Positions 13,677 through 42,000 of a stretch of DNA of 64,000 nucleotides are shown piece by piece. Made by a program: the position numbers and the translations under genes. The stretch is from Aquibium microcysteis (GTDB lineage Bacteria > Pseudomonadota > Alphaproteobacteria > Rhizobiales > Rhizobiaceae): NCBI RefSeq assembly GCF_014495845.1, contig NZ_CP061080.1:423001-487000 (forward strand). Reading direction: 5' to 3'. The notes beneath the pieces are model-generated. The model made no database searches and was not told the DNA's origin. It was given only the letters and a program-made list of their open reading frames with translations. Every line of letters starts with the position of its first letter. The first letter of the stretch is position 1.

Positions 13677-16526
13677 ATGACCGCTGAACCGCGCCTGGCG
13701 CTGTCCGAACCCGTCGGCGACACGGTGCGCAAGACCACCTGCTACATGTGCGCCTGCCGCTGCGGCATCGACGTCCATCTGAAGGACGGGAAGATCCGCT
13801 ACATCGAGGGCAACCGCGACCATCCGGTCAATCGCGGCGTCCTCTGCGCCAAGGGCTCGGCCGGCATCATGCAGCACAACGCGCCGGCGCGGCTGAACGG
13901 CCCGATGCTGCGCACCGGTCCGCGCGGTTCGGGGCAATTCCGGGAGATCTCCTGGGACGAGGCGCTGACACTGGCGAGCGGCTGGCTGGGCGATGTGCGC
14001 CGCACCGACCCCAAGAAGCTCGCCTTCTTCACCGGCCGCGACCAGAGCCAGGCGCTGACCAGCTTCTGGGCGCAGCAGTTCGGCACGCCCAACTATGCCG
14101 CCCATGGCGGCTTCTGCTCGGTCAACATGGCGGCCGCGGGCATCATGACCATCGGCGGCGCCTTCTGGGAGTTCGGCGCGCCCGACTGGGACCGCACGAA
14201 GCTCTTCGTGATGTTCGGCGTGGCGGAAGACCATGATTCCAACCCGCTGAAGATCGGCATCTCGAAGCTGAAGAGCCGCGGCGCCCGCTTCGTCTCGGTC
14301 AATCCGGTGCGCACCGGCTATTCCGCCATCGCCGACAACTGGATCGGGGTGCGGCCCGGCACCGACGGCCTGCTGATCCTGTCTCTCGTGCACGAACTGC
14401 TGAAGGCGCGGCGCATCGACGTCGACTACCTCCTCCGCTACTCCAACGCCGCCTGGCTCGTCATCGACGCGCCGGGCACCGCCGATCACGGGCTTTTCGC
14501 CCGCGACGGCGAGGGCAGGGCGCTCGTCTGGAACACCGCGACCGCGGAGGCCATGGCCGACGGCCCCGGCGTCCGCCCCGCGCTCTCCGGCCGCTTCACG
14601 CTGCCCGACGGCCGCGCGGCCGTCCCGTCCTTCGCGCTCCTTGCCGAGACCTATCTCGACGCCCGCTACGCACCCGAGACCGTCGCCGCCGAGACGGGCG
14701 TCTCCGCCGACACGATCCGGGGCCTGGCCAGCGAGATCGGCCGCGTCGCCTTCGACGAGGCGATCACGGTCGAGCAGGCCTGGACCGACATGCACGGGCA
14801 GGCGCACGCCCGGTTCGTCGGCCGGCCGGTCTCCTTCCACGCCATGCGCGGCATCTCGGCCCATTCCAACGGCTTCCAGACGGCGCGCGCGCTGCACATG
14901 CTGCAGGTGCTGATCGGCGCCGTCGACTGCCCCGGCGGCTTCCGCTTCGAGCCGCCCTATCCCAAGCCCGTCGAGGCGCATCCGCGCCCGCACGGCAAGG
15001 CCGAGCATTTCGGCTCCTCGCAGCCGCTGGCCGGCCCGCATCTCGGCTTTCCGCGCGGTCCCGAGGACCTTCTGATCGACGCCGAGGGCAATCCGGCGCG
15101 CATCGACAAGGCCTTCTCCTGGGACGCGCCGATCTCGGCCCACGGGCTGATGCACATGGTCATCTCCAATGCCCATGCCGGCGATCCCTATCCGGTCGAC
15201 GTGCTGTTCCTCTACATGGCCAACATGGCCTGGAACTCGTCGATGAACACCGGCGGCGTCATCCGCATGCTGGAGGAGAAGGATTCCGAAACCGGCGAAT
15301 ACCGCATCCCGAAGATCATCGTCTCGGACGCCTATTCGTCGGAAATGGTCGCCTATGCCGATCTCGTCCTGCCCGACACGACCTATCTCGAGCGGCACGA
15401 CTGCATCTCGATGCTCGACCGGCCGATCTCGGAGCCCGACGCGGTGCAGGACGCGATCCGCTGGCCGGTGGTCGAGCCCGACCGGCCCGGCCACCACGGG
15501 GTGCGCGGCTTCCAGTCGGTGCTCCTCGATCTCGGTGCGCGGCTGCGCCTGCCGGGCTTCGCCGACAGCCGGGGCACGCCGCTCTACCGCGACTATGCCG
15601 ATTACATCGTGCGCCACGAGCGCCGCCCCGGCATCGGTCCGCTCGCCGGCTTCCGCGGCGCCGATGGCGACCGCGCCGGGCGGGGTGCGGCCAATCCGGA
15701 CCAGCTCCGGCGCTACGTCGACAACGGCTCGTTCTTCGTCCAGCATCTGCCGGCCGAAGCCCTGTTCTTCAAGCACGCCAACCGCGCCTATCAGGATTTC
15801 GCGGTGAAGATGGGCTTCTTTGATACGCCACAGCCGGTCACCTTCCAGCTCTACCAGGAGACGCTGCAGAAGTTCCGCCTGTCGGCAGAGGGCCTGCGCG
15901 AACCGGTGGCGCCTGCCACCCACCGCGACCGCATCCTCGCCGCCTTCTCGCCGCTGCCCTCATGGTATCGCCCGCTGGAGGAGGCCGCGATCGACCGCGA
16001 CGCCTTCCCGCTGCACGCCATCACCCAGCGCCCGGCGGCGATGTACCATTCCTGGGGCTCGATGAACGCCTGGCTGCGCCAGATCCACACGCGCAACCCG
16101 CTCTACGTGCCGGGCGCCGTCTGCGACGCGGCCGGCCTCGCCGACGGCGACTGGGCCTGGCTTGTCTCGCCGCACGGCCGCATCAAGGTCGAGGTCGCGC
16201 GCATGGAGGCCGTCAACGGCGCAACGCTGTGGACCTGGAACGCCATCGGCAAGCGCAAGGGCGCCTGGGGCCTGTCGCCGGACGCCCCCGAAGCGAAGCG
16301 CGGCTTCCTGCTCAACCACCTCATCAACGAACTCCTGCCGCCGAAGGCGGACGGCCTGCGCTGGTCGAACTCCGATCCGATCACCGGTCAGGCCGCCTGG
16401 TACGACCTGCGTGTGCGGATCGAGAAGGCGGAGCCCGGCGGGGAGGCCGAGCCGCAGTTCCCGCCGGTGGCTGCGTCCGGATCGAGCCCGGCGGAGCTGC
16501 GCTACGGACAGGAGTGGAGCAAGTGA
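13677..16526 (+). CDS. soeA: Sulfite dehydrogenase (quinone) molybdopterin catalytic subunit SoeA
   Basis: A 949-residue molybdopterin-guanine-dinucleotide oxidoreductase of the DMSO-reductase superfamily. The [4Fe-4S] site is at the N-terminus (CYMCACRCG, residues 22-30, and VLCAKG about 30 residues on), and the probable Mo ligand is Cys in GGFCSVNMAAAG near residue 150. There is no Tat signal before the cluster, so it faces the cytoplasm, as for SoeABC of Allochromatium and roseobacters. With a four-cluster ferredoxin subunit and a DmsC-like membrane subunit downstream, the set fits SoeABC, which oxidises sulfite to sulfate and reduces quinone. Formate dehydrogenase or thiosulfate reductase catalytic subunits are similar but less likely given the partners. 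Confidence 0.82.
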   Translation: MTAEPRLALSEPVGDTVRKTTCYMCACRCGIDVHLKDGKIRYIEGNRDHPVNRGVLCAKGSAGIMQHNAPARLNGPMLRTGPRGSGQFREISWDEALTLASGWLGDVRRTDPKKLAFFTGRDQSQALTSFWAQQFGTPNYAAHGGFCSVNMAAAGIMTIGGAFWEFGAPDWDRTKLFVMFGVAEDHDSNPLKIGISKLKSRGARFVSVNPVRTGYSAIADNWIGVRPGTDGLLILSLVHELLKARRIDVDYLLRYSNAAWLVIDAPGTADHGLFARDGEGRALVWNTATAEAMADGPGVRPALSGRFTLPDGRAAVPSFALLAETYLDARYAPETVAAETGVSADTIRGLASEIGRVAFDEAITVEQAWTDMHGQAHARFVGRPVSFHAMRGISAHSNGFQTARALHMLQVLIGAVDCPGGFRFEPPYPKPVEAHPRPHGKAEHFGSSQPLAGPHLGFPRGPEDLLIDAEGNPARIDKAFSWDAPISAHGLMHMVISNAHAGDPYPVDVLFLYMANMAWNSSMNTGGVIRMLEEKDSETGEYRIPKIIVSDAYSSEMVAYADLVLPDTTYLERHDCISMLDRPISEPDAVQDAIRWPVVEPDRPGHHGVRGFQSVLLDLGARLRLPGFADSRGTPLYRDYADYIVRHERRPGIGPLAGFRGADGDRAGRGAANPDQLRRYVDNGSFFVQHLPAEALFFKHANRAYQDFAVKMGFFDTPQPVTFQLYQETLQKFRLSAEGLREPVAPATHRDRILAAFSPLPSWYRPLEEAAIDRDAFPLHAITQRPAAMYHSWGSMNAWLRQIHTRNPLYVPGAVCDAAGLADGDWAWLVSPHGRIKVEVARMEAVNGATLWTWNAIGKRKGAWGLSPDAPEAKRGFLLNHLINELLPPKADGLRWSNSDPITGQAAWYDLRVRIEKAEPGGEAEPQFPPVAASGSSPAELRYGQEWSK

Positions 16527-16591
16527 GCGCGAGATTCATGTGCGGCGGGCGGTTCCGGGTGGACGCAACGACCGCGAGGTCTGCGCGTGCG

Positions 16592-16680
16592 ATACCCCCA
16601 CCCCTTACCCCTCCACTCAAGGGGGAGGGGGACGTGAGACGTCGGCGCTCCCCCTCCCCCTGGAGGGGAGGGGCTATCCC
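16592..16680. repeat. GC-rich inverted repeat between soeA and soeB
   Basis: Within the 211-base soeA-soeB gap, two C/G-rich segments (about 16592-16631 and 16648-16680) are imperfect reverse complements, each containing CCCCTCCA and GGGGGAGGGG and so able to fold alone. It has the style of the repeats at 3911 and 57819. It carries no open frame and probably inserted into a once tighter operon. Confidence 0.65.
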
Positions 16681-16737: not shown

Positions 16738-17502
16738 ATGACCTCCCTCCCGACCCACCCCACCCCCAAGAAGCTCGGCCTCGTCATCGATCTCGACGTC
16801 TGCATCGGCTGCCATGCCTGCGTGGTGAACTGCAAGGAGTGGAACACCGGCGGCTACGGCGCGGCGCTGTCCGACCAGCAGCCCTGGGGCGCCGACGTCT
16901 CCGGCGCCTGGCTGAACCGCATCCACACCTTCGAGGTGGTGCCGGAGGGCGGCGAGGTCGTGGGCGAGGCGGGCGATGCACGCATCGTCCACTTCCCCAA
17001 GAGCTGCCTGCACTGCGAGGATGCGCCCTGCGTCACCGTCTGCCCCACCGGCGCCTCCTACAAGCGCGCCGCCGACGGCATCGTGCTCGTCGACGAGGAC
17101 AAGTGCATCGGCTGCGGGCTGTGCGCCTGGGCCTGCCCCTACGGCGCGCGCGAGATGGACGTGGCGGCCGGCGTGATGAAGAAGTGCACGCTCTGCATCG
17201 ATCGCATCTACAACGAGACCTTCGAGGAGGTCGACCGCGTGCCCGCCTGCGTGCGCACCTGCCCGGCCAATGCGCGCCATTTCGGCGATTTCGCCGATCC
17301 GGCCTCGAACGTCTCGCGGCTGACGGCGGCGCGCGGCGGCATCGACCTGATGCCGGAGCAGGGCACGCGGCCGGTCAACAAGTACCTTCCGCCGCGCCCG
17401 CGCCAGCCGCTCGCGGGGATGGCCTCCGTGCCGCTCGCCGAAAACACGGCGGCCGCGAAGGGCTTCTTCGCCTGGCTCGACGGCATGCTGGACAGGATCT
17501 GA
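16738..17502 (+). CDS. soeB: Sulfite dehydrogenase iron-sulfur subunit SoeB
   Basis: A 254-residue four-cluster ferredoxin-type electron-transfer subunit. Cysteine groups are visible in order: CIGCHACVVNC (residues 22-32), CLHCEDAPCVTVC, CIGCGLCAWACPYG and CTLCIDR with CVRTCPANARHF. This is the DmsB/NrfC pattern of 16 cysteines in four [4Fe-4S] clusters, carrying electrons from the molybdenum subunit to the membrane subunit. No signal peptide, matching a cytoplasmic SoeA. The gap to soeA holds an inverted repeat; soeC follows 66 bases downstream. Confidence 0.85.
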   Translation: MTSLPTHPTPKKLGLVIDLDVCIGCHACVVNCKEWNTGGYGAALSDQQPWGADVSGAWLNRIHTFEVVPEGGEVVGEAGDARIVHFPKSCLHCEDAPCVTVCPTGASYKRAADGIVLVDEDKCIGCGLCAWACPYGAREMDVAAGVMKKCTLCIDRIYNETFEEVDRVPACVRTCPANARHFGDFADPASNVSRLTAARGGIDLMPEQGTRPVNKYLPPRPRQPLAGMASVPLAENTAAAKGFFAWLDGMLDRI

Positions 17503-17568: not shown

Positions 17569-18489
17569 ATGCATCCGGCACCCTCGATCATCCTCTTCAC
17601 GGTCTGCTCTGGCCTCGGCTATGGCCTCGCGGTCATGCTGGGCCTTGGCCTGCTCCAGCCCGGGGCGCTCGCCACCAAGCTCGCGCACGTCCTTTCGCTC
17701 GCGCTGATCGGCGGCGGCCTGCTGTCGTCGACGCTCCACCTCGGCAATCCGCAGCGCGCCTGGCGCGCCTTCTCGCAATGGCGCTCGAGCTGGCTGTCGC
17801 GCGAGGGCGTCATGGCGGTGGCGACCTTCGTGCCGCTGACGCTCTCGGCTGCGCTGGCGCTGTTCGCCGACCGCTTCGTGCTGCCGCTCGGCCTCGTCGG
17901 CGCCGCGATGGCGGTCGCCACGGTCTACTGCACGGCCATGATCTACGCCTCGCTGCGCACCGTCGACGCCTGGGCCACGCCGCTCACGTCGGCCTGCTAC
18001 GTCGCCTTCTCGCTCGCCGGAGGGGCGTTGCTGGCGACGCTCCTTTCCGCGCTCGGCGGCGGCGAAGCGCGCGGCCCCGGGCTCGCCGCCCTTGTCTTGC
18101 TGGCGGTCGCCTGGGGCACGAAGCGCGCCTGGAGACGGCGCATGACCGGCCTCGTCCCAGCCTCGACGCCTGAGACGGCCACCGGCCTCGGCGCCATCGG
18201 CGCCGTGCGGCTGCTCGAGCGTCCGCACATGACGGAGAACTACCTGACCCGGGAGATGGGCTTCAGGGTCGCGCGCAAGCACGCCGCCAAGCTCTGGCGC
18301 ATCGCCGTCGGGCTCGGCGCCCTGCTCCCGGCCGGAGCACTCGTCCTGCTTCTTGCGGTGCCTCAGGGAATGCTGGCGACCGCCGCCGCGGCGCTCGCCA
18401 GCCTCGGCTTCGTCCTTGCCCTGCTCGTGGAGCGCTGGCTCTTCTTCGCGCAGGCGCGGCACGCCGTGATGAACTATTACGGCGGCTAG
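17569..18489 (+). CDS. soeC: Sulfite dehydrogenase membrane anchor SoeC (DmsC-like)
   Basis: A 306-residue integral membrane protein with about eight hydrophobic segments and the DmsC-family motif LHLGNPQRAWRAFSQWRSSW near residue 63. It anchors the complex and passes electrons to quinone. The last gene of the soe operon; its 3' end overlaps the convergent lpxXL-like gene by four bases. DmsC-type (not NrfD-type) anchors are what I recall for SoeABC, supporting the assignment. Confidence 0.82.
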   Translation: MHPAPSIILFTVCSGLGYGLAVMLGLGLLQPGALATKLAHVLSLALIGGGLLSSTLHLGNPQRAWRAFSQWRSSWLSREGVMAVATFVPLTLSAALALFADRFVLPLGLVGAAMAVATVYCTAMIYASLRTVDAWATPLTSACYVAFSLAGGALLATLLSALGGGEARGPGLAALVLLAVAWGTKRAWRRRMTGLVPASTPETATGLGAIGAVRLLERPHMTENYLTREMGFRVARKHAAKLWRIAVGLGALLPAGALVLLLAVPQGMLATAAAALASLGFVLALLVERWLFFAQARHAVMNYYGG

Positions 18490-23544: not shown

Positions 23545-23567
23545 AGTCTTGTAACTTATATAAGACT
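23545..23567 (+). promoter_or_regulatory. Palindromic operator upstream of the sulfofructose-kinase operon
   Basis: A 23-base imperfect palindrome with outer arms AGTCTT and AAGACT and an inner CTTATATAAG. It matches the element at 35076-35098 at 19 of 23 positions, including an identical 13-base right half (CTTATATAAGACT), and has almost the same spacing to the downstream ATG (54 versus 56 bases). Probable target of the GntR/UTRA regulator encoded at 34276-35001. Confidence 0.72.
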
Positions 23568-25625: not shown

Positions 25626-26180
25626 TCAGTTGAAGATGATCCGCGCCTGGACCGACAGCATGGCGTCGCCCGGCCTCACGATCAGCGCCTCGCCCTCGCG
25701 GGCCGCGCGTCCGGTCAGCGCCTGTATGGTCGCCAGGTCCGTTACCAGCACGATGTTGTCGGAGCCGCGGTAGCTGCGCACGAGGTCGAGCACCGCCTGA
25801 CGCGCCTCCGCGCCGTATTCGGCGTCGCCCACGGGCGGGTCGAGCGGCGGGAACGCCTCGATCGGAATGCGCTGGAAGGCGAGTTCCGCCGTCGACAGGG
25901 CGCGGCAGAGCCGGCTCGAATAGACCTTCTCGACGGGCGCGGCGCGCGCTGCCAGCAGCGCCCCCAACTTGCGCGCCTGCAGCTTGCCGCGGTCGGAGAG
26001 ATTGCGCTGCGTGGCGCAGTCCTCGATGTCGAAGGCCTCGGCGTCGGTGGTGCCGAGCGTGTAGGCGTGCCGCAGCAGGATGACATGCCCGCCTTCGCGC
26101 AGCAGCGCCCAGCCGGCCTCGGTGGCCTGCGCCGGCAGCGCGAACAGCAGCAGAGCTGCAGCAAGGATGGTACGGATCAT
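25626..26180 (-). CDS. Secreted histidine-phosphatase-fold protein with a changed active-site residue
   Basis: A 184-residue protein with a signal peptide (ILAAALLLFALPAQA) and a phosphoglycerate-mutase-like histidine phosphatase domain: the phospho-accepting His is in ILLRHAYTLG and the Arg pocket in VYSSRLCRAL. The second catalytic His, expected in a VTH-type motif, is Asp here (IVLVTDLATIQALTG; GAC in place of CAC). Its tandem paralogue at 26271-26828 keeps that His. It may be inactive or altered. ATG at 26180 has GGAGG four bases upstream. It lies on the opposite strand inside the sulfosugar block; no functional link is evident. Confidence 0.78.
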   Translation of the reverse strand: MIRTILAAALLLFALPAQATEAGWALLREGGHVILLRHAYTLGTTDAEAFDIEDCATQRNLSDRGKLQARKLGALLAARAAPVEKVYSSRLCRALSTAELAFQRIPIEAFPPLDPPVGDAEYGAEARQAVLDLVRSYRGSDNIVLVTDLATIQALTGRAAREGEALIVRPGDAMLSVQARIIFN

Positions 26181-26270: not shown

Positions 26271-26828
26271 CTAGTCGAAGCGGATGCGGCCGACGACGGC
26301 GACGCCGTCCCCGTCCGGCTCCACCACGACCGCCTCGCCCTGACCGGGCACGATGCCGGTCAGGGCGGTGATGTTGACCTGGTGCGTCACCATCACCTGA
26401 ACGCCGTCGCCATCGAAACCCGCGATCCGCGCCTTCGCCGCCGCGGTCTGCGCAGGCTCCGACGTGCGGTCGCCGAAGAAGGAATCGATCGGCGGATACG
26501 GTTCCACCCGGTCGGCGCCGAAGGCGAGCCGCGCCGTCTCCAGCGACCGGCACCAGCGGCTGGACAGCACCGCGTCCACCTCGACGCCCCATTCCGCGAA
26601 GCGTTCGCCGATGCGCCGCGCCTGGGCGCGCCCTTCCTCCGAGAGGTTGCGCTGGGTGGCGCAGTCGGCGAGGTCGAAGCCGGCCGGGTCGCCGGTCCCC
26701 GGTGCCGTTGCATGCCTGATCAGCACGGTGCGTCCGCCTTCCGAGAGCAGCAGCCGGTCGGCCTCGTCGGCCCGCGCCGGGGTCGTCGCGAGCAGACCCA
26801 TCGCCAGGAAAACCAACAGAAATCGCAT
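26271..26828 (-). CDS. Secreted histidine phosphatase family protein
   Basis: A 185-residue periplasmic protein with a signal peptide (MRFLLVFLAMGLLATTPARA) and a histidine phosphatase domain: TVLIRHATAPG holds the nucleophilic His, SSRWCRSLETA the Arg pocket, and VMVTHQVNITALTG the second catalytic His. The start at 26828 has GGAGG eight bases upstream and gives a clean signal peptide; an ATG at 26861 would add 11 residues. It is about 90 bases upstream of its paralogue on the same strand. Substrate unknown. Confidence 0.82.
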   Translation of the reverse strand: MRFLLVFLAMGLLATTPARADEADRLLLSEGGRTVLIRHATAPGTGDPAGFDLADCATQRNLSEEGRAQARRIGERFAEWGVEVDAVLSSRWCRSLETARLAFGADRVEPYPPIDSFFGDRTSEPAQTAAAKARIAGFDGDGVQVMVTHQVNITALTGIVPGQGEAVVVEPDGDGVAVVGRIRFD

Positions 26829-26874
26829 CGTCGTCGCCTCCGCGTCCCGATGCAGAGCCATCTAGGGGACCGCC

Positions 26875-28287
26875 ATGCCGGGTGAAGGAACCGCGACCAT
26901 CGGGCGCGTCGGGCTCTTGCCGCTCGGGCGGCCGACCTTCGACGTGCCCTTCGCCGGGGAGAACCTCGCCGCCATGCTGGCCGCCCTCGACCGCGCCGGC
27001 ATCGAGACCGTCGGGCCGCGGTCACTGCTGTTCGATGCCGACGCCACCCGCGCGGCGATTGCGGCCCTGAAAGGCGAGACCATCGACCGGCTGCTCGTGC
27101 TGCAGGTCACCTTCACCGATGCCGGGATGGTGGCGGAGGTGGCGAATGCCTTCGCAAAGCCGCTGGCGCTCTGGTCGATCCCCGAGCCGCGCGCCGGCGG
27201 GCGGCTGCGGCTCAACTCCTTCTGCGGATTGAATCTCGCGGCCCACGCGCTGGGGCTCGCCGACCGCGCCTTCGGCTATCTCCATGCCGCGCCCGACGCC
27301 TCCGGCATCGGCGCCGCGCTGACCGACCTGCTGTCGGGCGCAAGGCAGGCCGTCCCGGTCGGCACGCGCGCAGCGACCGGCGACGATCCGGCAGGTGTCG
27401 CCGCCGCGCAGGCCATCCGCGGCGCCCGCATCGCCCGCATCGGCCGGCATCCGGACGGTTTCCCCACCTGCGCCTACGACAAGCATGCCATCGCAGCACT
27501 TGCCGGCGCGACCGTCGACGAACTCGACCTGTCCGACCTGTTTGCCCGCGCCGGCGCCATCTCTTCCGAGGCGCTCGCGGAGACCCGTGCGGCGGCCAGC
27601 GTCGACCTCGTCGGCCTCGATGCCGTTGACCAGCAGCAACTCGACCGGTCGCTGCGCCTGAAACCCGCCATCGATGCGCTGCGGGCCGAGGGCCGCTACG
27701 ACGCCTTCGCCATCCGCTGCTGGCCCGAGACCTTCACCGAATATGGCGGCGCGGTCTGCGGACCCGTCTCGATGATGGGCGAGGCGCGGGTGCCCTGTGC
27801 CTGCGAGGCCGACGTCTACGGCGCGCTGTCGACGCTGCTCCTCCAGACGATCGCCGACGCGCCGGCCTTCCTGACCGACCTCGTCGACCTCGATGCCGAG
27901 GACGACACCGGCGTCGTCTGGCATTGCGGCCAGGCGCCGGTCTCGATGGCCGACCCCGATGCCGTGGCACGCGCGACCATCCACACCAACCGCAAGATGC
28001 CGCTGCTCTACGAATTCCCGCTGAAGCCCGGCCGCGTCACGTTCTTCCGCATCAGCCAGGCGCGCGGCCGCCCCGTCGCCGTCATCGGCGGCGGCGAGGT
28101 GCTGAAGCGGCCGATGGCCTTCACCGGAACCTCCGGCGTCGTCCGCTTCGACACGCCGGCAAGACACCTGCTCGACCGCATCATGGGCGCGGCGCTCGAG
28201 CATCACATGGCGCTCGCCTATGGAGACCACCGGAATGCTCTCGACGCCGCTGCCCGATCGCTCGGCCTTCCCGTCCTCGATCTCTGA
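26875..28287 (+). CDS. FucI/AraA-fold sugar isomerase, probable sulfoquinovose isomerase
   Basis: A 470-residue protein of the L-fucose/L-arabinose isomerase family. The metal-site region is seen in AIRCWPETFTEYGGAVCG near residue 280, and further conserved parts are MMGEARVPCACEADVYGAL and VVWHCGQAP. The family interconverts aldoses and ketoses using a divalent metal. Members of this fold serve as sulfoquinovose isomerases (SqvD-type) in several sulfoglycolysis variants, and the neighbouring kinase and aldolase call for exactly this step. It is followed after 10 bases by the Gfo/Idh/MocA gene. ATG at 26875 has AGGGGA upstream. An L-fucose-like or other aldose substrate is possible. Confidence 0.7.
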   Translation: MPGEGTATIGRVGLLPLGRPTFDVPFAGENLAAMLAALDRAGIETVGPRSLLFDADATRAAIAALKGETIDRLLVLQVTFTDAGMVAEVANAFAKPLALWSIPEPRAGGRLRLNSFCGLNLAAHALGLADRAFGYLHAAPDASGIGAALTDLLSGARQAVPVGTRAATGDDPAGVAAAQAIRGARIARIGRHPDGFPTCAYDKHAIAALAGATVDELDLSDLFARAGAISSEALAETRAAASVDLVGLDAVDQQQLDRSLRLKPAIDALRAEGRYDAFAIRCWPETFTEYGGAVCGPVSMMGEARVPCACEADVYGALSTLLLQTIADAPAFLTDLVDLDAEDDTGVVWHCGQAPVSMADPDAVARATIHTNRKMPLLYEFPLKPGRVTFFRISQARGRPVAVIGGGEVLKRPMAFTGTSGVVRFDTPARHLLDRIMGAALEHHMALAYGDHRNALDAAARSLGLPVLDL

Positions 28288-29487: not shown

Positions 29488-29518
29488 GATTTCTCACCGC
29501 ATTTCCCGCCCGCATGTC

Positions 29519-30115: not shown

Positions 30116-30119
30116 ATCC

Positions 30120-31745: not shown

Positions 31746-31765
31746 CGCCGTCGCCCTCCCTGGAC

Positions 31766-31783: not shown

Positions 31784-31802
31784 CATAGAAGGACAATACC
31801 AA

Positions 31803-34275: not shown

Positions 34276-35001
34276 TCAGCCGAGCTCGGACGAATAGTGC
34301 ACGGCCTGCGTCAGGCAGCGCGAGACGCGCAGCTCGACCGGCTTGTTCTCGAGGTCGAGGGCGATGCGGGTGACGGCGAGCAGCGGCGTGCCGGGCGCGC
34401 AGCCGAGTGCGGCCGCATCGGTCTCCGTGGCGGCGATCGCCTTCAGTCTCTCGCTCGCCCGGCCGATGGTGATGCCCCAGCGTTCGGAATAGAGGCCGTA
34501 GACGTTGTTGGGGATCGCTTCGAGGTCGCCGAAACCGGGCACGCGCGCGTCGGGCAGGGTCAGCGTCTCGACGAGCAGCGGCGCGCCGTCGAGCGTGCGC
34601 ACCCGCTCGACGCGCCAGACGCGATCGCCGGCGGAAAGGCCGAGCGAGTCGACCTCCGCCGCCGTCGCCGCAGCCGGCCGCCGGTCGAGGATGGCGGAAT
34701 CGGGAAAGCGCGGCTTGCCGTCGTCCGGCACCAGCCGGAAGAACTGGAACAGGATGCGGCTCTCCTCCGGCCGCGCCACGAAGGTGCCGCGCCCCTGACG
34801 CCGGATCAGGAGGTTCTCGGCCGTCATCGCGTCGAGCGCCTTGCGGATCGTCCCCTGGCTGACGCCGATCTCGCGCGCCAGCTCGATCTCCGACGGAATG
34901 TGCTGGCCCGGCTGCCACTCGCCGTCGATGAGCCGGCGCACGAGCTGGTCGCGCACCTGCACGTAGAGGGGCCGATAGGCGAAGGCGGTCTGGTCCATCA
35001 C
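34276..35001 (-). CDS. GntR-family regulator with UTRA domain, probable sulfolactate/sulfosugar regulator
   Basis: A 241-residue HutC-subfamily regulator. The winged helix-turn-helix spans about residues 8-78 (PSEIELAREIGVSQGTIRKA is the recognition region, QGRGTFVARP the wing) and a UTRA effector domain covers about 95-235. It is transcribed away from suyAB, and a palindrome lies in the 153-base gap between them. A second copy of that palindrome lies upstream of the sulfofructose kinase operon, suggesting one regulator for both. The effector is probably a pathway intermediate such as sulfolactate or a sulfosugar phosphate. An in-frame Met directly follows the first. Confidence 0.85.
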   Translation of the reverse strand: MMDQTAFAYRPLYVQVRDQLVRRLIDGEWQPGQHIPSEIELAREIGVSQGTIRKALDAMTAENLLIRRQGRGTFVARPEESRILFQFFRLVPDDGKPRFPDSAILDRRPAAATAAEVDSLGLSAGDRVWRVERVRTLDGAPLLVETLTLPDARVPGFGDLEAIPNNVYGLYSERWGITIGRASERLKAIAATETDAAALGCAPGTPLLAVTRIALDLENKPVELRVSRCLTQAVHYSSELG

Positions 35002-35075: not shown

Positions 35076-35098
35076 TATCTTATATCTTATATAAGACT
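35076..35098 (+). promoter_or_regulatory. Palindromic operator between the GntR gene and suyA
   Basis: A 23-base element TATCTTATAT followed by CTTATATAAGACT. It sits 74 bases before the GntR start (minus strand) and 56 bases before suyA. The inner CTTATATAAG is a perfect palindrome, and the site contains two overlapping TCTTATAT half-sites. It is the counterpart of the site at 23545-23567. Confidence 0.75.
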
Positions 35099-35154: not shown

Positions 35155-35442
35155 ATGGGCATTCCGCATCTCCTGGTTCACGAGCACGACGACAATGTCG
35201 GCGTCGTCGTGGTGGAGGGCCTCGAGGCCGGCACGACGATGCTGGCCGTGGTCACCGCCGACAATTCGTCGTTCGAGATCGAGGCGAAGGCCGACATCCC
35301 GATCGGCCACAAGGTGGCGCTGAAGGATCTCGCGGCCGGCGACACGGCCATAAAGTACGGCGAGGACATCGGCCGCTTCGTCGCCGCCGTCGCGCGCGGC
35401 GAGCATGTCCACGTCCACAATCTCAAGACCAAGCGCTGGTAG
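35155..35442 (+). CDS. suyA: (2R)-sulfolactate sulfo-lyase small subunit SuyA
   Basis: A 95-residue SAF-domain protein. The start (MGIPHLLVHEHDDNVGVVVV), the middle (IPIGHKVALKDLAAGDTAIK) and the end (GEHVHVHNLKTKRW) fit SuyA as I recall it from Paracoccus and Chromohalobacter. With SuyB it eliminates sulfite from (R)-3-sulfolactate, giving pyruvate. UxaA-type altronate dehydratases share this SAF domain, but there it is usually fused or has a different C-terminus. ATG at 35155, AAGAGG upstream. First gene of the suy operon, 72 bases before suyB. Confidence 0.88.
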   Translation: MGIPHLLVHEHDDNVGVVVVEGLEAGTTMLAVVTADNSSFEIEAKADIPIGHKVALKDLAAGDTAIKYGEDIGRFVAAVARGEHVHVHNLKTKRW

Positions 35443-35514: not shown

Positions 35515-36696
35515 ATGGCCTCGAAGTATTCCAACATGACGATCCGCGCCTATCGCCGCGAGAACGGCCGCGTCGGCGTGCGCAACCATGTCGTCATCCT
35601 GCCGGTCGACGACATCTCCAACGCCGCCTGCGAGGCAGTGGCCAACAACATCAAGGGCACGATGGCCCTGCCGCACGCCTATGGCCGGCTGCAGTTCGGT
35701 GCCGACCTCGACCTGCACTTCCGCACCATGATCGGCACCGGCGCCAATCCCAACGTGGCGGCCGTGGTGGTCATCGGCATCGAGCCGGGCTGGACCAAGC
35801 GCATCGTCGACGGCATCGCCGCCACCGGCAAGCCGGTCGCCGGCTTCTCGATCGAGCAGAACGGCGACCTCAGGACCATCATGGACGCCAGCCGCGCGGC
35901 CAAGGACTTCGTCCACTATGCGACCGAACTCCAGCGCGAGGAATGCTCGATCTCCGAGCTCTGGGTCTCGACCAAATGCGGCGAGAGCGACACCACGACC
36001 GGCCTCGGCTCCTGCCCGACGGTCGGCAACATGTACGACAAGCTGCTGCCGGAGGGCATCTACGGCTGCTTCGGCGAGACGTCCGAGATCACCGGCGCCG
36101 AGCACATCGCCAAGGCCCGCGCGATCAACCCGGAGGTGGGCGAGCGCTGGTACGCGATGTGGAAGGGCTACCAGGAGGACGTGATCGAGCAGTTCAAGAC
36201 CGACGACCTTTCGGAGAGCCAGCCGACGCGCGGCAACATCGAGGGCGGGCTGACGACCATCGAGGAGAAGGCGCTGGGCAATCTGGAGAAGATCGGCCGC
36301 ACCTCGCGCTACATCGACATCCTGGAGCCTGCCGAGACGCCGAAATCGGGCAGGGGCCTCTATTTCATGGACAGCTCGTCGGCCGCGGCCGAATGCGTGA
36401 CGCTGATGGCGGCCGGCGGCTTCGTCATCCACACCTTCCCGACGGGGCAGGGCAACGTGGTCGGCAACCCGATCGTGCCGGTCATCAAGATCACCGCCAA
36501 CCCGCGCACGGTGCGCACCATGGGCGAGCATGTCGACGTCGACGTCTCGGGAATCCTGCGCCGCGAGATGACCATCGACGAGGCCGGCGACGCGCTGATC
36601 GACATGATCGTGCGCACCGCCAACGGCCGCAGCACGGCGGCCGAGGCGCTGGGGCATCGGGAATTCGTGATGACGAAGCTCTACCGGAGCGCGTGA
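35515..36696 (+). CDS. suyB: (2R)-sulfolactate sulfo-lyase large subunit SuyB
   Basis: A 393-residue UxaA-family lyase subunit. Diagnostic stretches include [20 protein letters not shown] near the start, [17 protein letters not shown] near residue 155, [20 protein letters not shown] and [19 protein letters not shown]. The KCGESD region holds the probable iron-binding Cys. The whole length matches SuyB, which with SuyA splits (R)-sulfolactate to pyruvate and sulfite. Released sulfite would be detoxified by SoeABC encoded at 13.7-18.5 kb. Downstream the coding strand is interrupted by the opposite-strand hepT-mntA pair before slcC. Confidence 0.9.
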
Positions 36697-37053: not shown

Positions 37054-37352
37054 CAGAACACCGTCAGGAGATCGTCGGAAATCCTCTGCTTGAAGCGGGG
37101 CTTCATCTGGGCCGACTCGTCGATCAATCGCGTCTCAATTCCGAGTTCGTCGGACAAATCCGGTCCGATCCCGAAGAAGTCGAAGCCTGATGCGTTCGGC
37201 GGCGGATCATACTCCACCAGCAGGTCCAGGTCGCTGTCCTCGCGGTTGTCGCCGCGGGCGCGCGAGCCGAACATCTGCAGGCGCGTGATGCCGCGGGCTC
37301 GGAGCGCCGGCTCCATCTCCTTCAGCCGGGCGATGATCTCGTCGCGGGTCAT
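37053..37352 (-). CDS. mntA: MntA-type antitoxin, minimal nucleotidyltransferase
   Basis: A 99-residue minimal nucleotidyltransferase. The motif MFGSRARGDNREDSDLDLLV contains GSx10DxD, the catalytic site that AMPylates the partner HepT toxin on a Tyr. The C-terminal part (DELGIETRLIDESAQMKPRF) is shorter than usual family tails but plausible. It precedes hepT in a two-gene leftward operon placed between suyB and slcC. Confidence 0.87.
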   Translation of the reverse strand: MTRDEIIARLKEMEPALRARGITRLQMFGSRARGDNREDSDLDLLVEYDPPPNASGFDFFGIGPDLSDELGIETRLIDESAQMKPRFKQRISDDLLTVF

Positions 37353-37498: not shown

Positions 37499-38428
37499 AT
37501 GCCTGACGTCGTCATCACCGAATTCATGGACGAGGCGGCCGTCGGCCGGCTGAAGGCCCGCTTCGACACGCTCTACGACCCGGCGCTCGTCGACCGGCCG
37601 GACGATCTGCGCGCCGCCGTGGTCAGCGCACGGGCGCTGATCGTCCGCAACCGCACGCAGGTGCGCGGCGCGCTGCTGGACGCGGCGACGTCCCTGACCT
37701 GCGTCGGCCGCCTGGGCGTCGGGCTCGACAACATCGACGTCGACGCCTGCCGGGCGCGCGGCATCGCGGTCTGTCCCGCCACCGGCGCCAATGATCTCTC
37801 GGTGGCCGAATACGTCATGGCGGCGGCGATGACGCTGCTGCGCGGCGCCTTCTTCGCCTCGGCAGACGTGGCGGGCGGCGCCTGGCCGCGCCAGAGGCTG
37901 ATCGGCCGCGAACTGGCGGGCAGGACGATGGGGCTCGTCGGCCTCGGCGCGATCGCCCGCGAGGTCGCCTGGCGGGCGCAGGCCTTCGGCATGACCGTAT
38001 TGGCATACGATCCCATGCTGATGGCCGATCATCCCGCCTGGCAGCTGGCGCGCAACGTCTCGCTGGACGGCCTGCTCAGCCTGTCCGACGTCGTCAGCCT
38101 GCACGTGCCCCTGACGGACGCGACCCGCAACATGATCGATGCCGCCCGGATCGCGGCGATGAAGCCCGACGCCGTCCTGATCAACGCCGCGCGCGGCGGG
38201 GTGGTCGACGAGGCGGCGCTGGCGACGGCACTGCGGGAGAAGCGGCTGGGCGGCGCGGCGCTCGACGTCTTCGCCGAGGAGCCGCTGTCGGCGGCCGGCG
38301 GCGAGCGGTTCAGGGGCATCGATAACCTGATCCTCACCCCGCACGTCGCCGGCGTCACCGTCGAATCCAACGTGCGCGTGTCGGAACTGATCGCCGGTAC
38401 CGTCATCGCCCATCTGGAGAAGGCCTGA
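37499..38428 (+). CDS. slcC: (S)-sulfolactate dehydrogenase SlcC
   Basis: A 309-residue D-2-hydroxyacid dehydrogenase. NAD-binding motif GLVGLGAIAREVAWRAQ near residue 143, and the catalytic triad Arg (NAARGGVVDE), Glu (FAEEPL) and His (LTPHVAGVT). The N-terminus PDVVITEFMDEAAV and GVGLDNIDVDACRARGIAV resemble SlcC. It oxidises (S)-sulfolactate to sulfopyruvate; ComC then reduces it to the (R) form used by SuyAB. Start at 37499 with GGGAGG five bases upstream; an earlier ATG at 37451 is less well supported. The stop overlaps the comC start by one base (TGATG). Confidence 0.85.
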   Translation: MPDVVITEFMDEAAVGRLKARFDTLYDPALVDRPDDLRAAVVSARALIVRNRTQVRGALLDAATSLTCVGRLGVGLDNIDVDACRARGIAVCPATGANDLSVAEYVMAAAMTLLRGAFFASADVAGGAWPRQRLIGRELAGRTMGLVGLGAIAREVAWRAQAFGMTVLAYDPMLMADHPAWQLARNVSLDGLLSLSDVVSLHVPLTDATRNMIDAARIAAMKPDAVLINAARGGVVDEAALATALREKRLGGAALDVFAEEPLSAAGGERFRGIDNLILTPHVAGVTVESNVRVSELIAGTVIAHLEKA

Positions 38429-39435
38429 TGCCGGACACCACGCTCACGATCGCCGGGGCGCACGCGCTGGTCTGCGCGGCGCTGACGGCGTCGAGGACGT
38501 CTGTGGAGAACGCCGCGATCGTCGCCGACGCGCTGATCGGCGCCGAGCTCGCCGGGCAGGGTGGGCATGGCCTGCGCCGGGTGCCGGCCTACGCCGCGCA
38601 GGCCAGGGCCGGCAAGGTCGACGGCCATGCCGTGCCGACCGCCACCCGCGTCCGTCCGGGCGCCGTGGCGATCGACGCCGCGAGCGGCTTCGCCTATCCG
38701 GCCCTCGAGCTTGCGGCGCGCGAACTCGCCGCCATGGCGCCGGCGCAGGGCATCGCCGCCGCCGGCATCCGCCGTTCGCATCACGCGGGGGTCGCCGGCC
38801 TGACGGTGGAGGCGCTGGCCGAGAAGGGCCTGGTGGCGCTGCTCTTTTCCAACGCGCCGGCCGCCATCGCGCCCTGGGGCGGACGCCGTCCGCTCTTCGG
38901 CACCGATCCGATCGCCTTCGCCTGCCCGACGGCCGACGGGGAGACCATCGTCGTCGACGTCTCGATGTCGAAGGTCGCGCGCGGACGGATCATGGCGGCG
39001 AACCAGAAGAACGAGCCGATCCCGGAAGGCTGGGCTCTCGACGTCGACGGCCATCCGACCACCGACGCGAAGGCGGCGCTCGCCGGCACGATGGTGCCGC
39101 TCGGCGATGCCAAGGGCACGGCGCTGGCGCTGATGGTGGAACTGCTCTGTGCCGGGCTGACGGGCGCGAACTACGGCTACGAGCAGACCTCCTTCTTCGA
39201 TGCCGAGGGGGAGGCGCCCGGAACGGGGCAGCTGCTGATCGCCATCGATCCCGAAACCTTCGGCGGCACCCGGGCGTTGGACCGCTTCGCGGCGATGGCG
39301 GCGATGGTTGCCGGCACCGACGGCGCCCGGTTGCCAGGGTCGAGGCGGCAGGCTATTCGTGACCGCCTCCGGCGCGACGGCCTTTCGGTCGAGACCGCGC
39401 TCGTCAGGGAAATCGAAGTGTTGGCCGCCGGCTGA
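38428..39435 (+). CDS. comC: (R)-sulfolactate dehydrogenase ComC (malate/L-lactate dehydrogenase family)
   Basis: A 335-residue NAD(P)-dependent oxidoreductase of the Ldh2/YlbC family. Conserved parts: GQGGHGLRRVPAYAAQA near residue 43, the catalytic-His segment IRRSHHAGVAG near 112, GTDPIAFACPT and the glycine-rich GDAKGTALALMVELL. In sulfolactate clusters this family is ComC, converting sulfopyruvate to (R)-sulfolactate. Translationally coupled to slcC; the pair epimerises sulfolactate. Family members also act on ureidoglycolate or other 2-hydroxyacids, so the name rests on context. Confidence 0.83.
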   Translation: MPDTTLTIAGAHALVCAALTASRTSVENAAIVADALIGAELAGQGGHGLRRVPAYAAQARAGKVDGHAVPTATRVRPGAVAIDAASGFAYPALELAARELAAMAPAQGIAAAGIRRSHHAGVAGLTVEALAEKGLVALLFSNAPAAIAPWGGRRPLFGTDPIAFACPTADGETIVVDVSMSKVARGRIMAANQKNEPIPEGWALDVDGHPTTDAKAALAGTMVPLGDAKGTALALMVELLCAGLTGANYGYEQTSFFDAEGEAPGTGQLLIAIDPETFGGTRALDRFAAMAAMVAGTDGARLPGSRRQAIRDRLRRDGLSVETALVREIEVLAAG

Positions 39436-39454: not shown

Positions 39455-40912
39455 ATGCTGCAGAAATCCAACCACTACATGCGACAGGCCAATCTGATCG
39501 GCGGCGAGTGGGTCCAGGCCGATTCCGGTGCGACGATCGACGTGACCAATCCGGCCAACGGCCAGAAGCTCGGCACCGTGCCGAAATCCGGCAAGGCCGA
39601 GACCCGCCGCGCCATCGAGGCGGCCGACAAGGCCTTCCGGACCTTCCGCAAGACGACCGCCAACGAGCGCTCCAAGATGCTGCGCAAGCTGCACGACCTG
39701 ATCCTGGAGAACCAGGATGCGCTGGCCGAGCTGCTCACGCTGGAGCAGGGCAAGTCGCTGGCCGAGGCCAAGGGCGAGGTCGGCGCGTCGGCCGCCTACG
39801 TGCTCTGGTTTGCCGAGGAGGCGCGCCGCACCTATGGCGACGTCGTGCCGTCGCCCTGGGCCGACCGCCGCATCATCGTCACGCGCGAGCCGGTCGGCGT
39901 CATCGCCGCCATCACGCCGTGGAACTTCCCGTCCTCGATGCTGGCCCGCAAGATCGGCCCGGCGATCGCCGCCGGCTGCACCACCGTCGTCAAGCCCGCG
40001 TCGCAGACGCCCTATTCGGGCCTCGCCTGGGGTGCGCTGTGCGAGGAGGCCGGCATTCCGGCCGGCGTGGTCAACATCGTCACCGGCTCGGCCGGCGAGA
40101 TCGGCGACGAGATCTGCGCCAACCCGCTGGTCAAGAAGATCACCTTCACCGGCTCGACCGAGGTCGGCAAGATCCTGATCGAGAAGTCGGCGGCGACCGT
40201 CAAGAAGGTCTCGATGGAACTCGGCGGCAACGCGCCGTTCCTCGTGTTCGACGATGCCGACGTCGACCGCGCCGTCGAGGGCGCCATGGTCGCCAAGTAC
40301 CGCAATTCCGGCCAGACCTGCGTCTGCACCAACCGCTTCTTCGTCCAGGCCGGCGTCTACGACGCCTTCGTGGAGAAGCTCGCCGCCGCGTCGGCGAAGC
40401 TCAAGGTCGGCCCCGGCATCGATGCCGGCGTGCAGCAGGGACCGCTGATCGACGGCAAGGCGGTCGAGAAGGTCGAGGAACTGATCGGCGACGCCACCGC
40501 CAAGGGCGGCACGGTGGTCACCGGCGGCAAGCGTCACGCGCTCGGCGGCTCCTTCTTCGAGCCGACGGTGATTTCGGGCGCCACGCCCGACATGCGCTTC
40601 ATGAAGGAGGAGATCTTCGGCCCCGTCGCACCGGTGTTCCGGTTCGAGACCGAGGAAGAGGCCGTCGCGCTCGCCAACGACACCGAATACGGCCTCGCCT
40701 GCTATTTCTACAGCTCCGACCTCGGCCGCGTCTTCCGGGTCATGGAGACCCTGAAATACGGCATGGTCGGCGTCAACGAAGGCCTGATCACCACCCCCGA
40801 GGCGCCCTTCGGCGGCGTCAAGGAAAGCGGCCTCGGCCGCGAGGGTGGACACCAGGGCATCGAGGACTATCTCGACACCAAATACGTCTGCATCGGCGGC
40901 CTCGGCCTCTGA
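39455..40912 (+). CDS. NAD(P)-dependent aldehyde dehydrogenase, probable sulfolactaldehyde dehydrogenase
   Basis: A 485-residue succinate-semialdehyde-type aldehyde dehydrogenase. Cofactor segment ITPWNFPSSMLARKIGPA near residue 155, FTGSTEVGK, catalytic Glu in SMELGGNAP and catalytic Cys in NSGQTCVCTNRF near residue 290. This GabD-like family provides sulfolactaldehyde dehydrogenases (SlaB-type) in sulfoglycolysis. It would oxidise the aldolase product to (S)-sulfolactate, which SlcC takes on. GGAGG lies seven bases before the ATG at 39455, and the gene is 19 bases after comC in the same operon. Confidence 0.85.
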   Translation: MLQKSNHYMRQANLIGGEWVQADSGATIDVTNPANGQKLGTVPKSGKAETRRAIEAADKAFRTFRKTTANERSKMLRKLHDLILENQDALAELLTLEQGKSLAEAKGEVGASAAYVLWFAEEARRTYGDVVPSPWADRRIIVTREPVGVIAAITPWNFPSSMLARKIGPAIAAGCTTVVKPASQTPYSGLAWGALCEEAGIPAGVVNIVTGSAGEIGDEICANPLVKKITFTGSTEVGKILIEKSAATVKKVSMELGGNAPFLVFDDADVDRAVEGAMVAKYRNSGQTCVCTNRFFVQAGVYDAFVEKLAAASAKLKVGPGIDAGVQQGPLIDGKAVEKVEELIGDATAKGGTVVTGGKRHALGGSFFEPTVISGATPDMRFMKEEIFGPVAPVFRFETEEEAVALANDTEYGLACYFYSSDLGRVFRVMETLKYGMVGVNEGLITTPEAPFGGVKESGLGREGGHQGIEDYLDTKYVCIGGLGL

Positions 40913-40980
40913 TCGGCGCCTGAACGGGCAGGGCGCCCCCGGCAACGGCGCCCGCATCGTCTGGCTGAGGGGAGCGGCGA

Positions 40981-42000
40981 ATGGCGGATGTCGAGGAGTT
41001 CGGGACCACGCCCGAGGGCGAGCCCGTGCACCGCGTCGAGATCAGGGGCGGCGGGCTGACCGCCCGCATCCTCACCTGGGGGGCGGTGGTTCAGGACCTG
41101 CGGCTGGCCGAGCACGACGCGCCGCTGGTGCTGGGCTTCGAGCGCTTCGAGGACTACCCGGTCCATTCCGCCTATTTCGGCGCCATCGCCGGTCGCTACG
41201 CCAACCGCATCGCCGGCGGCCGCTTCACCATCGAGGGCCAGCGGTTTCAGGCCGACACCAACTTCCTCGGCAGGCACACGCTGCATGGCGGCGCGAAGGG
41301 GACCGGCAAGCGCGTCTGGCGGCTCGCCGATCGCGGGACCGATTTCGTCACCCTGGCGCTCACCGACCCGGACGGCGCGATGGGCTTTCCGGGCAACCTC
41401 GAGATCGTCTGCACCTACCGGCTGAAGCTGCCCGGCGCGCTCTCGGTCCAGCTGTCGGCCACCACCGACCAGCCGACGCTGTGCAACCTCGCGCACCACT
41501 CCTATTTCAACCTGAACGACGGCGGCATGAACGACGTGCTCGGCCACCGGCTGATGATGCCGGCGCAGGCCTACACGCCCGTCGACGAGGACCTGATCCC
41601 GACGGGCGTCGTGCAGCCGGTGGAAGGCACGCCGTTCGATTTCCTGCTGCCGCGGCCGATCGGCATGAAGGTGGATGGCGAGCAGGTTATCTACGACCAC
41701 AATTTCTGCATCGCCGCCGCGCGCGGCCCGCTCCGGCAGATGGCCTGGGCGCAGGGGCCGAATTCGGGCGTCGAGATGGAGGTCTGGTCGACCGAGCCCG
41801 GCCTGCAGTTCTACGCCGGCCACAAGGTCGCCCGCACGGTCCCCGGCCTCGGCGGCCGCACCTACGGGGCCTATGCCGGCTTCGCCATGGAGCCGCAGGT
41901 CTGGCCCGATTCGCCGAACCGGCCGTACTTCCCGCAGGCGCTCCTCTATCCCGGCGACCGCTACCGCCAGACGACGGAGTATCGCTTCAGGCTGGGATAG
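40981..42000 (+). CDS. Aldose 1-epimerase, possible sulfoquinovose mutarotase
   Basis: A 339-residue galactose-mutarotase-like protein. Catalytic residues are visible: His in GRHTLHGGAKG near residue 100, His in LAHHSYFNLND near 172, and a C-terminal Glu region (TTEYRFRLG). The family speeds interconversion of alpha and beta anomers. As the last gene of the slcC-comC-aldehyde dehydrogenase operon it may act on sulfoquinovose, as the E. coli YihR mutarotase does, though a general aldose substrate is possible. Its 3' end overlaps the convergent sugar kinase gene by 14 bases. Confidence 0.83.
   Translation: MADVEEFGTTPEGEPVHRVEIRGGGLTARILTWGAVVQDLRLAEHDAPLVLGFERFEDYPVHSAYFGAIAGRYANRIAGGRFTIEGQRFQADTNFLGRHTLHGGAKGTGKRVWRLADRGTDFVTLALTDPDGAMGFPGNLEIVCTYRLKLPGALSVQLSATTDQPTLCNLAHHSYFNLNDGGMNDVLGHRLMMPAQAYTPVDEDLIPTGVVQPVEGTPFDFLLPRPIGMKVDGEQVIYDHNFCIAAARGPLRQMAWAQGPNSGVEMEVWSTEPGLQFYAGHKVARTVPGLGGRTYGAYAGFAMEPQVWPDSPNRPYFPQALLYPGDRYRQTTEYRFRLG

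Follow-up and report, generated by a model that had tools for sequence, protein, structure and literature searches.

We describe a stretch of 64,000 nucleotides from a bacterium of the Aquibium group (hereafter the window; positions 423001-487000 of a single-contig complete genome of 6,109,263 bases) with genes predicted to convert sulfoquinovosides to dihydroxyacetone phosphate (DHAP), pyruvate, and sulfate. The genes form three operons that share one palindrome, likely bound by a GntR regulator, and would be run as a unit; we assign this reading a probability of about 0.78. The genes themselves, their families, their conserved neighborhoods, and the palindromes with their genome-wide positions are observed directly, and the gene set for the route within one cell is real, conserved, and probably complete. 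The original prediction for this DNA had likewise proposed that one cell takes the sulfosugar through a sulfoglycolytic Embden–Meyerhof–Parnas route (sulfo-EMP) to DHAP, pyruvate, and sulfate, and this is supported by the gene families, the neighborhoods, and a palindrome before all three of its loci. The genes that it listed (soeABC, kinase, aldolase, FucI-type isomerase, MocA protein, and GntR–suyAB–slcC–comC–dehydrogenase–mutarotase) are all present about where it had placed them, as judged from Pfam, NCBIfam, and start codons. The palindrome, the shared regulon, and an importer candidate are new; SuyAB beside sulfoglycolysis genes is already in print.

The predicted steps, whose substrates and reactions are all read from sequence, run as follows, with every gene of the window's part on the plus strand. 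A distant ATP-binding cassette (ABC) importer under the same palindrome would take up the sulfosugar glycoside, and SqgA, a predicted NAD-dependent sulfoquinovosidase of glycoside hydrolase family 188 (GH188; Gfo/Idh/MocA; 28298 (ATG)..29383), would release sulfoquinovose via a transient NAD-dependent oxidation. A mutarotase (an aldose 1-epimerase by Pfam with its role predicted from position; 40981..42000) and a predicted sulfoquinovose isomerase (an SftI relative with FucI-C; 26875..28287) would yield sulfofructose, which a YihV-like PfkB kinase (23622 (ATG)..24518) would phosphorylate to sulfofructose-1-phosphate. A predicted class I aldolase of the DeoC/LacD/YihT kind (24515 (ATG)..25564), whose ATG overlaps the kinase stop, would cleave this to DHAP and (S)-sulfolactaldehyde. 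A GabD-family aldehyde dehydrogenase (~39455..40912; role by position) would then produce (S)-sulfolactate, and SlcC, predicted (S)-sulfolactate dehydrogenase (~37499..38428), together with ComC, predicted (R)-sulfolactate dehydrogenase (38428..39435), would invert it through sulfopyruvate to (R)-sulfolactate. SuyA (35155..35442) and SuyB (35515..36696), the small and large subunits of a predicted (R)-sulfolactate sulfo-lyase, would cleave this to pyruvate and sulfite, and the predicted sulfite dehydrogenase SoeABC, with molybdopterin subunit SoeA (13677..16526), 4Fe-4S subunit SoeB (16738..17502), and DmsC-type membrane anchor SoeC (17569..18489), would oxidize the sulfite at the membrane and feed quinone.

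The palindrome, GTCTTATATAAGAC, was found by comparing the GntR–suyA intergenic regions of relatives. It stands three times in operator-like positions of the window: as GTCTTGTATAGGAC at 13642..13655, 21 bp 5' of the soeA start and in the same place in seven relatives; as AACTTATATAAGAC at 23553..23566, 55 bp 5' of the kinase start; and as ATCTTATATAAGAC at 35084..35097, in the GntR–suyA intergenic region 57 bp 5' of suyA. Allowing up to two mismatches, CTTATATAAGAC gave six matches in the window (the three palindromes on both strands) against 0.07 expected. The whole genome has four sites of the 14-mer within two mismatches, compared with none for a reversed-pattern control, and they lie before soeA, the kinase gene, suyA, and an ABC sugar-importer operon; random placement would bring three or more of the four into a single 64 kb window with a probability of 4.6e-6. 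For a 12-mer with one mismatch, three places were found in the genome and the control count was 2. As it has just four sites in 6.1 Mb, the palindrome is no general promoter element.

The same arrangement recurs in related genomes. Ten genomes, the window's own and nine reached via named loci, hold 43 sites within two mismatches, 35 of them directly before suyA, the kinase gene, soeA, or an importer binding-protein gene. The reversed-pattern control gave 16 sites over the ten genomes, which amounts to an expectation of one or two per genome by chance. The sites at these promoters made up four of four in the window's genome and in A. carbonis, four of five each in Aquibium sp. ELW1220, Nitratireductor arenosus, N. 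alexandrii, a Mesorhizobium metagenome-assembled genome, and ECS31B3, three of three in PRO29, two of three in Rhizobiales 65-79, and two of four in Stappia albiluteola; around the remaining 8 of the 43, any relatives of pathway genes that we saw were distant paralogs with 25-36% identity. The palindrome is present at all four promoters in seven genomes, the window's own and, among the nine relatives, G001, G002, G003, G004, G006, and G009. A second sample was anchored on the isomerase and comprised 80 named genome loci, the best of 231, with neighbors matched by tblastn (E up to 1e-10) over at most 10 kb on each side, some loci being cut by contig ends; "full" loci are the 54 that extend 8 kb or more upstream and 6 kb or more downstream. 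The 80 loci contain 61 sites, where 40 control palindromes of equal composition gave 0-10, and in five Hoeflea loci (L043, L050, L056, L072, and L081) the palindrome precedes the kinase, suyA, DctQ, and DctP genes.

A test that did not select for sites searched the 150 bp that precede each gene start for the best 14-mer. Upstream of the kinase it had 0-2 mismatches in 17/17 loci with a GntR ortholog and at least 5 in 51 of the 53 loci without one; the 53 exclude four loci with GntR elsewhere in the genome. Fewer than five mismatches occurred in 0 of 265 regions upstream of the isomerase, SqgA, ComC, dehydrogenase, mutarotase, and SuyB genes. The suyA upstream regions had 0-2 mismatches in 22 of 23, and in 15 of the 16 that come from the 80 unselected loci; the suyA copy in L032 has three. 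A site was also present upstream of soeA in 8/9 and of the importer in 8/8, but most of these regions had been retrieved by way of the site itself and, being selected, prove less. Core identity of 0.89-0.96 against 0.28-0.58 in the flanks, computed from 31 hand-picked sites, serves as an illustration alone because the sites were chosen for matching the consensus.

The GntR-UTRA protein encoded beside suyA (34276..35001, minus strand), in which Pfam finds both domains, is the likely reader of the palindrome and likely acts as a repressor, its binding being suggested by co-occurrence: of the 80 loci, 17 encode a GntR ortholog with 57% identity or more, and every one of these has the palindrome, which in 16 stands immediately before the GntR gene. 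Two weaker GntR matches are split, the 39% one having a 2-mismatch site and the 31% one none. Since the common palindrome likely binds GntR, the operons would be switched on as one unit. It is improbable that another regulator reads the palindrome, or that it is a promoter element and no GntR operator. Such a role would fit its possible overlap with the suyA -10 region (read by eye), the six loci that have the palindrome and no GntR match within the stretches compared, and the suyAB of one genome, G017, which lacks it; it is countered by the 17 of 17 loci and by four of the six GntR-less loci (L009, L010, L014, and L018), whose genomes have a GntR–suyA pair with the palindrome elsewhere.

The gene neighborhoods are conserved as well. 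A match to the kinase was found near the isomerase in 75 of the 80 loci, to the aldolase in 71, and to SqgA in 71, and the co-location of these four genes exceeds chance; SlcC matched in 51 loci, the mutarotase in 38, the dehydrogenase in 33, and SuyB in 14. The isomerase shares 86% identity with that of A. carbonis and 89% with that of Aquibium sp. ELW1220, two genomes that the genome collection places in the genus of the window's own, and 77% and 68% with those of two other Aquibium, and SuyB is 97% identical to that of ELW1220; in plasmid records all isomerase relatives have less than 60% identity. In N. arenosus and N. alexandrii (L011/L012) the whole pathway set is contiguous, in the order kinase, aldolase, histidine phosphatase, isomerase, SqgA, AEC permease, GntR, SuyA, SuyB, SlcC, ComC, dehydrogenase, mutarotase, and 2-keto-3-deoxygluconate (KDG)-type kinase. 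The window's AEC-family permease (33309 (ATG)..34256, plus strand; Pfam; matched in 5/80 loci) and its KDG-kinase-like PfkB (41987..43252, minus strand; in the same place in Nitratireductor and A. oceanicum) hold equal places in that cluster. Given this contiguous set, the two middle loci of the window are one cluster opened by a V4R-BchE-PPK2 stretch (29519-33237), for which Pfam gives no family link to the pathway; the three separate loci of the original prediction are thus one interrupted cluster plus soeABC. An inverted repeat, CGGGGACAGTTTACTTAATTCG ... CGAATTAAGTAAACTGTCCCCGG at 29405-29490 between SqgA and the V4R-BchE-PPK2 stretch, may mark the insertion. Between aldolase and isomerase lie two histidine phosphatase family genes on the minus strand (25626..26180, kept in part of the relatives, and 26271..26861).

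The principal alternative is that two independent modules, a sulfo-EMP pathway excreting sulfolactate and a suyAB–soeABC set for scavenged sulfolactate or cysteate, are adjacent by chance. It draws on the excretion of 2,3-dihydroxypropanesulfonate (DHPS) or sulfolactate by characterized sulfo-EMP bacteria (PMC8873060, PMC12890257; these two papers, and PMC9594981, PMC10599462, PMC10755693, and PMC12421959 below, are drawn on in part, and what we say of them holds for those parts). Two relatives (G015 and G033) have suyAB–SlcC–ComC with the palindrome and gave no isomerase match, and in A. oceanicum the suy and kinase loci lie ~0.93 Mb apart, the palindrome being kept at suyA and soeA and present as two 3-mismatch copies at the kinase promoter. 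Against this stand the palindrome at the kinase operon, suyA, soeA, and importer in the window's genome and six of nine relatives, and the position of upstream-half genes (sulfolactaldehyde dehydrogenase and mutarotase) 3' of suyAB on the same strand. We therefore regard chance adjacency as unlikely and retain the single regulon.

The distribution of the palindrome suggests how such a regulon may have arisen. In a palindrome-alone genome, the 69%-complete G011, sites were found at suyA and soeA; G015 and G033 are as given above, and G017 has a cluster with a tripartite ATP-independent periplasmic (TRAP) importer and DeoR regulator in addition to its palindrome-free suyAB. From this pattern the palindrome seems tied first to sulfolactate use, with sulfoglycolysis wired on in some lineages. 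That the palindrome precedes suyAB in G015 and G033, both without an isomerase match, suggests a late intermediate, sulfolactate or a neighboring one, as effector of GntR.

The assignments of the upper pathway differ in strength, SqgA being the clearest of the whole pathway. The original prediction had a Gfo/Idh/MocA protein here, and its family holds; by its best solved relatives, however, the protein is a predicted sulfoquinovosidase, with 424, 422, and 399 bits to chains 8qc3, 8qc2, and 8zn9 and 79 bits to the next family. PDB 8QC2 is a GH188 crystal structure (PMC11465081). Eight residues ascribed to catalysis and substrate contact in SqgA (PMC10755693), K107, Y136, R166, L170, K172, E189, H193, and H321, are all identical (8/8) in the 8qc3 alignment, with a numbering shift of 13, and SqgA has been associated with sulfo-EMP and four other pathways (PMC10755693). 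The isomerase, for which no solved relative was found by sequence in PDB, has an AlphaFold model with a pLDDT (predicted local distance difference test) of 90 and the L-arabinose/L-fucose isomerase fold by Foldseek; it belongs to PF02952 and not to the AGE family of YihS (PF07221). In a profile search of the kind suggested with the original prediction, the sole NCBIfam match of the isomerase was the sulfoquinovose isomerase model NF048012 (SftI), end to end with 260 bits against a cut-off of 700. For the kinase, YihV 7ag6 was the top of all solved chains (230 bits; runner-up 173), and three residues that we take to be sulfonate contacts of YihV, K27, N109, and R138, are all conserved in the alignment. 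The aldolase is nearest in PDB to a DUF2090 chain with no function stated (324 bits), followed by LacD and then YihT (64 bits); it passes the NCBIfam PRK12858 cut-off, falls in the tagatose-bisphosphate aldolase families, and conserves a lysine presumably catalytic in LacD. By these family assignments, the upper pathway looks like a hybrid of SftI-type isomerase, YihV-type kinase, LacD/YihT-type aldolase, and GH188 entry.

In the lower pathway, SuyAB has a split small SAF subunit (SuyA; Pfam 22.4 bits, cut-off 21) and a large GD_AH subunit (SuyB; Pfam) encoded side by side. The SuyB name is borne by 25 of 120 listed relatives, the others being called UxaA hydrolase or galactarate dehydratase or left unnamed. 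ComC was placed by Pfam, SlcC belongs to the 2-hydroxyacid dehydrogenase family and is named by position, and the SoeABC subunit set is present in Pfam (molybdopterin, 4Fe-4S, and DmsC-type anchor). The names of SlcC, ComC, mutarotase, and SoeABC thus reflect mostly family and position. The aldehyde dehydrogenase is GabD-like; two arginines proposed to hold the sulfonate in sulfolactaldehyde dehydrogenase (PMC10599462) are both present, but equally so in E. coli GabD. Sulfogluconate dehydratase (PF00920), expected of a sulfoglycolytic Entner–Doudoroff (sulfo-ED) route, was not among the scanned open reading frames of the window, where not every frame was scanned, the rest of the genome not being searched.

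Several observations weigh against the reading as one regulated sulfoquinovose pathway. The isomerase, SuyB, and ComC all fall below NCBIfam equivalog cut-offs (ComC has 192 bits to NF040650, cut-off 500), and the mutarotase passes the general galM subfamily cut-off alone. The aldehyde dehydrogenase is nearer to E. coli GabD than to the characterized sulfolactaldehyde dehydrogenase and passes the general NCBIfam cut-off for succinate-semialdehyde dehydrogenase; as the sole close GabD of the genome (the next is 46%), it may serve γ-aminobutyrate too. The best models and solved relatives of SlcC are phosphoglycerate dehydrogenases. SoeA has PhsA as its best NCBIfam model (169 bits, cut-off 694), with no Soe model among its NCBIfam matches, and of its 120 listed relatives 4 bear the SoeA name and three are called formate dehydrogenase, most others being generic. 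On the regulatory side, the soeA and kinase sites of the window's genome each carry two mismatches, three of the nine relatives (G005, G007, and G008) have no soeA site within two mismatches, and the soeA of a DeoR-type locus (L035) is without the palindrome. Among 41 genomes (n=40 and the window's own), at up to one mismatch, the palindrome was found in 7, the isomerase in 5, and both in 4, leaving 3 with the palindrome alone and 1 with the isomerase alone. A. oceanicum and PRO29 are without a homolog of the window's aldolase (E up to 1e-20), and the binding protein of the distant importer is weakly SmoF-like (25.9 bits).

It is very unlikely that the kinase, aldolase, and isomerase act on sulfofucose (6-sulfo-galactose) by a tagatose-like route, as the aldolase families, the isomerase fold, and the PF00294 kinase and PF01791 aldolase of a Paracoccus sulfofucose cluster (PMC12421959) might suggest, since the operon holds SqgA with its sulfoquinovose-contact residues, the isomerase matches sulfoquinovose isomerase alone in NCBIfam, the kinase is nearest YihV, and those Paracoccus proteins were not significantly increased on sulfofucose (PMC12421959).

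The original prediction saw no dedicated importer, which stands for the window; a candidate lies elsewhere in the genome. The fourth genome site, at 3,681,916, is ~3.2 Mb from the window and 81 bp before an operon for a solute-binding protein (PF01547), two permeases, and a MalK-type ATPase, and this ABC sugar importer is the candidate for the function absent from the window. The ABC transporter at 51.2-56.3 kb was rejected as sulfoquinovose importer: its binding protein has 29.6 bits to SmoF against 98 for its best chain, and no palindrome lies there within two mismatches. TRAP importer genes are present in 44 of the 54 full loci, and a TRAP ortholog in the window's genome was sought and dismissed (best DctP 35% identical). 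The AEC permease had been considered since AEC occurs in 4/54, DctP in 44/54, and both in 0/54, and was downgraded for want of its own palindrome, which the ABC importer does have. PPK2 genes lie near both the sulfosugar cluster (32134-33237) and the distant importer (L097:9122-10042), probably by coincidence.

Other ends of the pathway also vary among the 54 full loci. SuyB was found in 13, a pair of thiamine pyrophosphate (TPP) enzyme genes in 14, both in none, and neither in 27. The TPP pair of L022 (15833-16890) scores over the cut-offs of the NCBIfam ComD and ComE models (sulfopyruvate decarboxylase), and in Rhodobacterales clusters, where the ComD/ComE genes sit after SlcC, ComDE would be the alternative desulfonation end to SuyAB; ComDE is named in the figure legend of a gut study on sulfoquinovose, the part of that source used here. 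In six Silicimonas/Boseongicola loci (L027, L030, L034, L054, L078, and L080), isomerase–kinase–dehydrogenase–SlcC clusters had no aldolase or SqgA match within the stretches compared (up to 10 kb on each side), and another aldolase may be at work in these, in A. oceanicum, and in PRO29.

The original prediction called the coupling to SuyAB unusual, which precedents in Actinobacteria, Thermotogae/Chloroflexi, and Paracoccus qualify. Such coexistence has been called unusual in print (PMC12421959). Actinobacterial GH188 clusters combine sulfolactaldehyde dehydrogenase, SuyAB, sulfofructose-1-phosphate aldolase, sulfofructose kinase, and fucose isomerase (PMC11465081). They differ (IMCC26103, Clavibacter) in having Tyr at the place of Leu170, which is Leu in the window's SqgA, and were described with no regulon, soeABC, or function (PMC11465081), whereas the window's cluster is alphaproteobacterial. 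The sulfo-EMP pathways of Arthrobacter AK01 and E. coli isomerize, phosphorylate, and cleave sulfoquinovose in the same way, and Arthrobacter shares the GabD-type dehydrogenase and SqgA; they use YihS where the window has an SftI-kind isomerase and excrete sulfolactate, whereas for the window cleavage of the sulfolactate and oxidation of the resulting sulfite are predicted. Sulfo-EMP is described as ending in sulfolactate or DHPS, and oxygenase routes as complete mineralization (PMC12890257). The latter (sulfo-ASMO and sulfo-ASDO, for alkanesulfonate monooxygenase and dioxygenase) free the sulfur of sulfoquinovose within one cell, as predicted here, but cut the C–S bond of the whole sugar to give glucose, without sulfolactate or SuyAB in that account (PMC12890257).

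The proven tandem of Paracoccus wurundjeri takes sulfofucose to sulfite in one cell, with SlcC–ComC–SuyAB after sulfolactaldehyde as in the window (PMC12421959). Its upper part is an Entner–Doudoroff route for sulfofucose with no SlaB/GabD homolog, in contrast to sulfo-EMP in the window. Extended sulfoglycolytic transaldolase (sulfo-TAL) clusters of Thermotogae/Chloroflexi likewise join sulfoquinovose cleavage and SuyAB, with a transaldolase in place of the window's kinase and aldolase; two-species mineralization is described alongside them (PMC9594981). Among the related sulfo-EMP clusters that a figure of PMC8873060 lists is that of Aliiruegeria (Pseudoruegeria) haliotis, which has the accession of our locus L045 and the same kinase–aldolase–isomerase–SqgA order as the window; it differs in its TRAP importer and DeoR regulator, and the palindrome and suyB were not found in the stretch compared. 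In the sulfosugar literature compared, partly seen and largely without subscription papers, we found no mention of the palindrome, the ABC importer, or a regulon shared with soeABC, and nothing joining sulfoquinovose and Nitratireductor, so these absences are weak.

A broader model, which we hold at slightly better than even odds, is that a sulfolactate regulon captured the complete sulfoglycolysis module. A single GntR repressor that responds to a late C3 sulfonate would control import, the sulfoquinovosidase, sulfo-EMP, desulfonation, and sulfite oxidation by way of one palindrome; among relatives, importers (ABC or TRAP, each with the palindrome) and desulfonation ends (SuyAB, or ComDE in Rhodobacterales with DeoR) would be swapped, and single-cell mineralization by C–C cleavage would extend across Alphaproteobacteria. 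Sulfoquinovose turnover is put at ~10 billion tons a year (PMC10755693, PMC12890257), and routes by C–C cleavage are described as needing other bacteria to mineralize the C3 sulfonate (PMC9594981). The alphaproteobacterial regulon would join both halves in one cell, and the named promoters and importer candidate make the idea directly testable. The palindrome offers a short tag by which such bacteria could be found, and in the genomes examined it helps to tell suyAB operons wired to sulfosugar genes.

Some further features of the loci deserve mention. A HepT-like/MNT nucleotidyltransferase pair (36700-37352, minus strand), possibly a toxin–antitoxin module, separates SuyB from SlcC within the suy operon, where A. 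oceanicum shows a similarly sized gap. A MauG-type di-haem peroxidase is found near the TRAP importer in 39 of the 54 full loci (e.g. L043:5833-7272 and L082:6350-8083), and the window's own MauG (43541-44803) is distantly similar to it; we know of no part for this peroxidase in sulfoglycolysis. A small recurring ORF beside MauG in relatives ('x216') looks like an antisense shadow and was not used. Genes with no evident pathway link lie at 18.5-23.5 kb, among them those for a lipid A acyltransferase, a zinc alcohol dehydrogenase, and a ketoacyl synthase, together with acyl-carrier genes. At 45372-50478 on the minus strand, an SMC/SbcC-like ATPase, a metallophosphoesterase, and a REase-ARP nuclease may form a defense system, with gene calls that are uncertain because the last two ORFs overlap. 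A sugar ABC importer, GntR-FCD regulator, aldehyde dehydrogenase, MR/MLE dehydratase, and GMC oxidoreductase at 51223-60908 form a separate cluster for sugar-acid uptake and oxidation. The window's BchE scores 829 bits in NCBIfam (cut-off 481), and the genome has the reaction-centre genes pufLM (two PF00124 matches), which points to a phototrophic bacterium.

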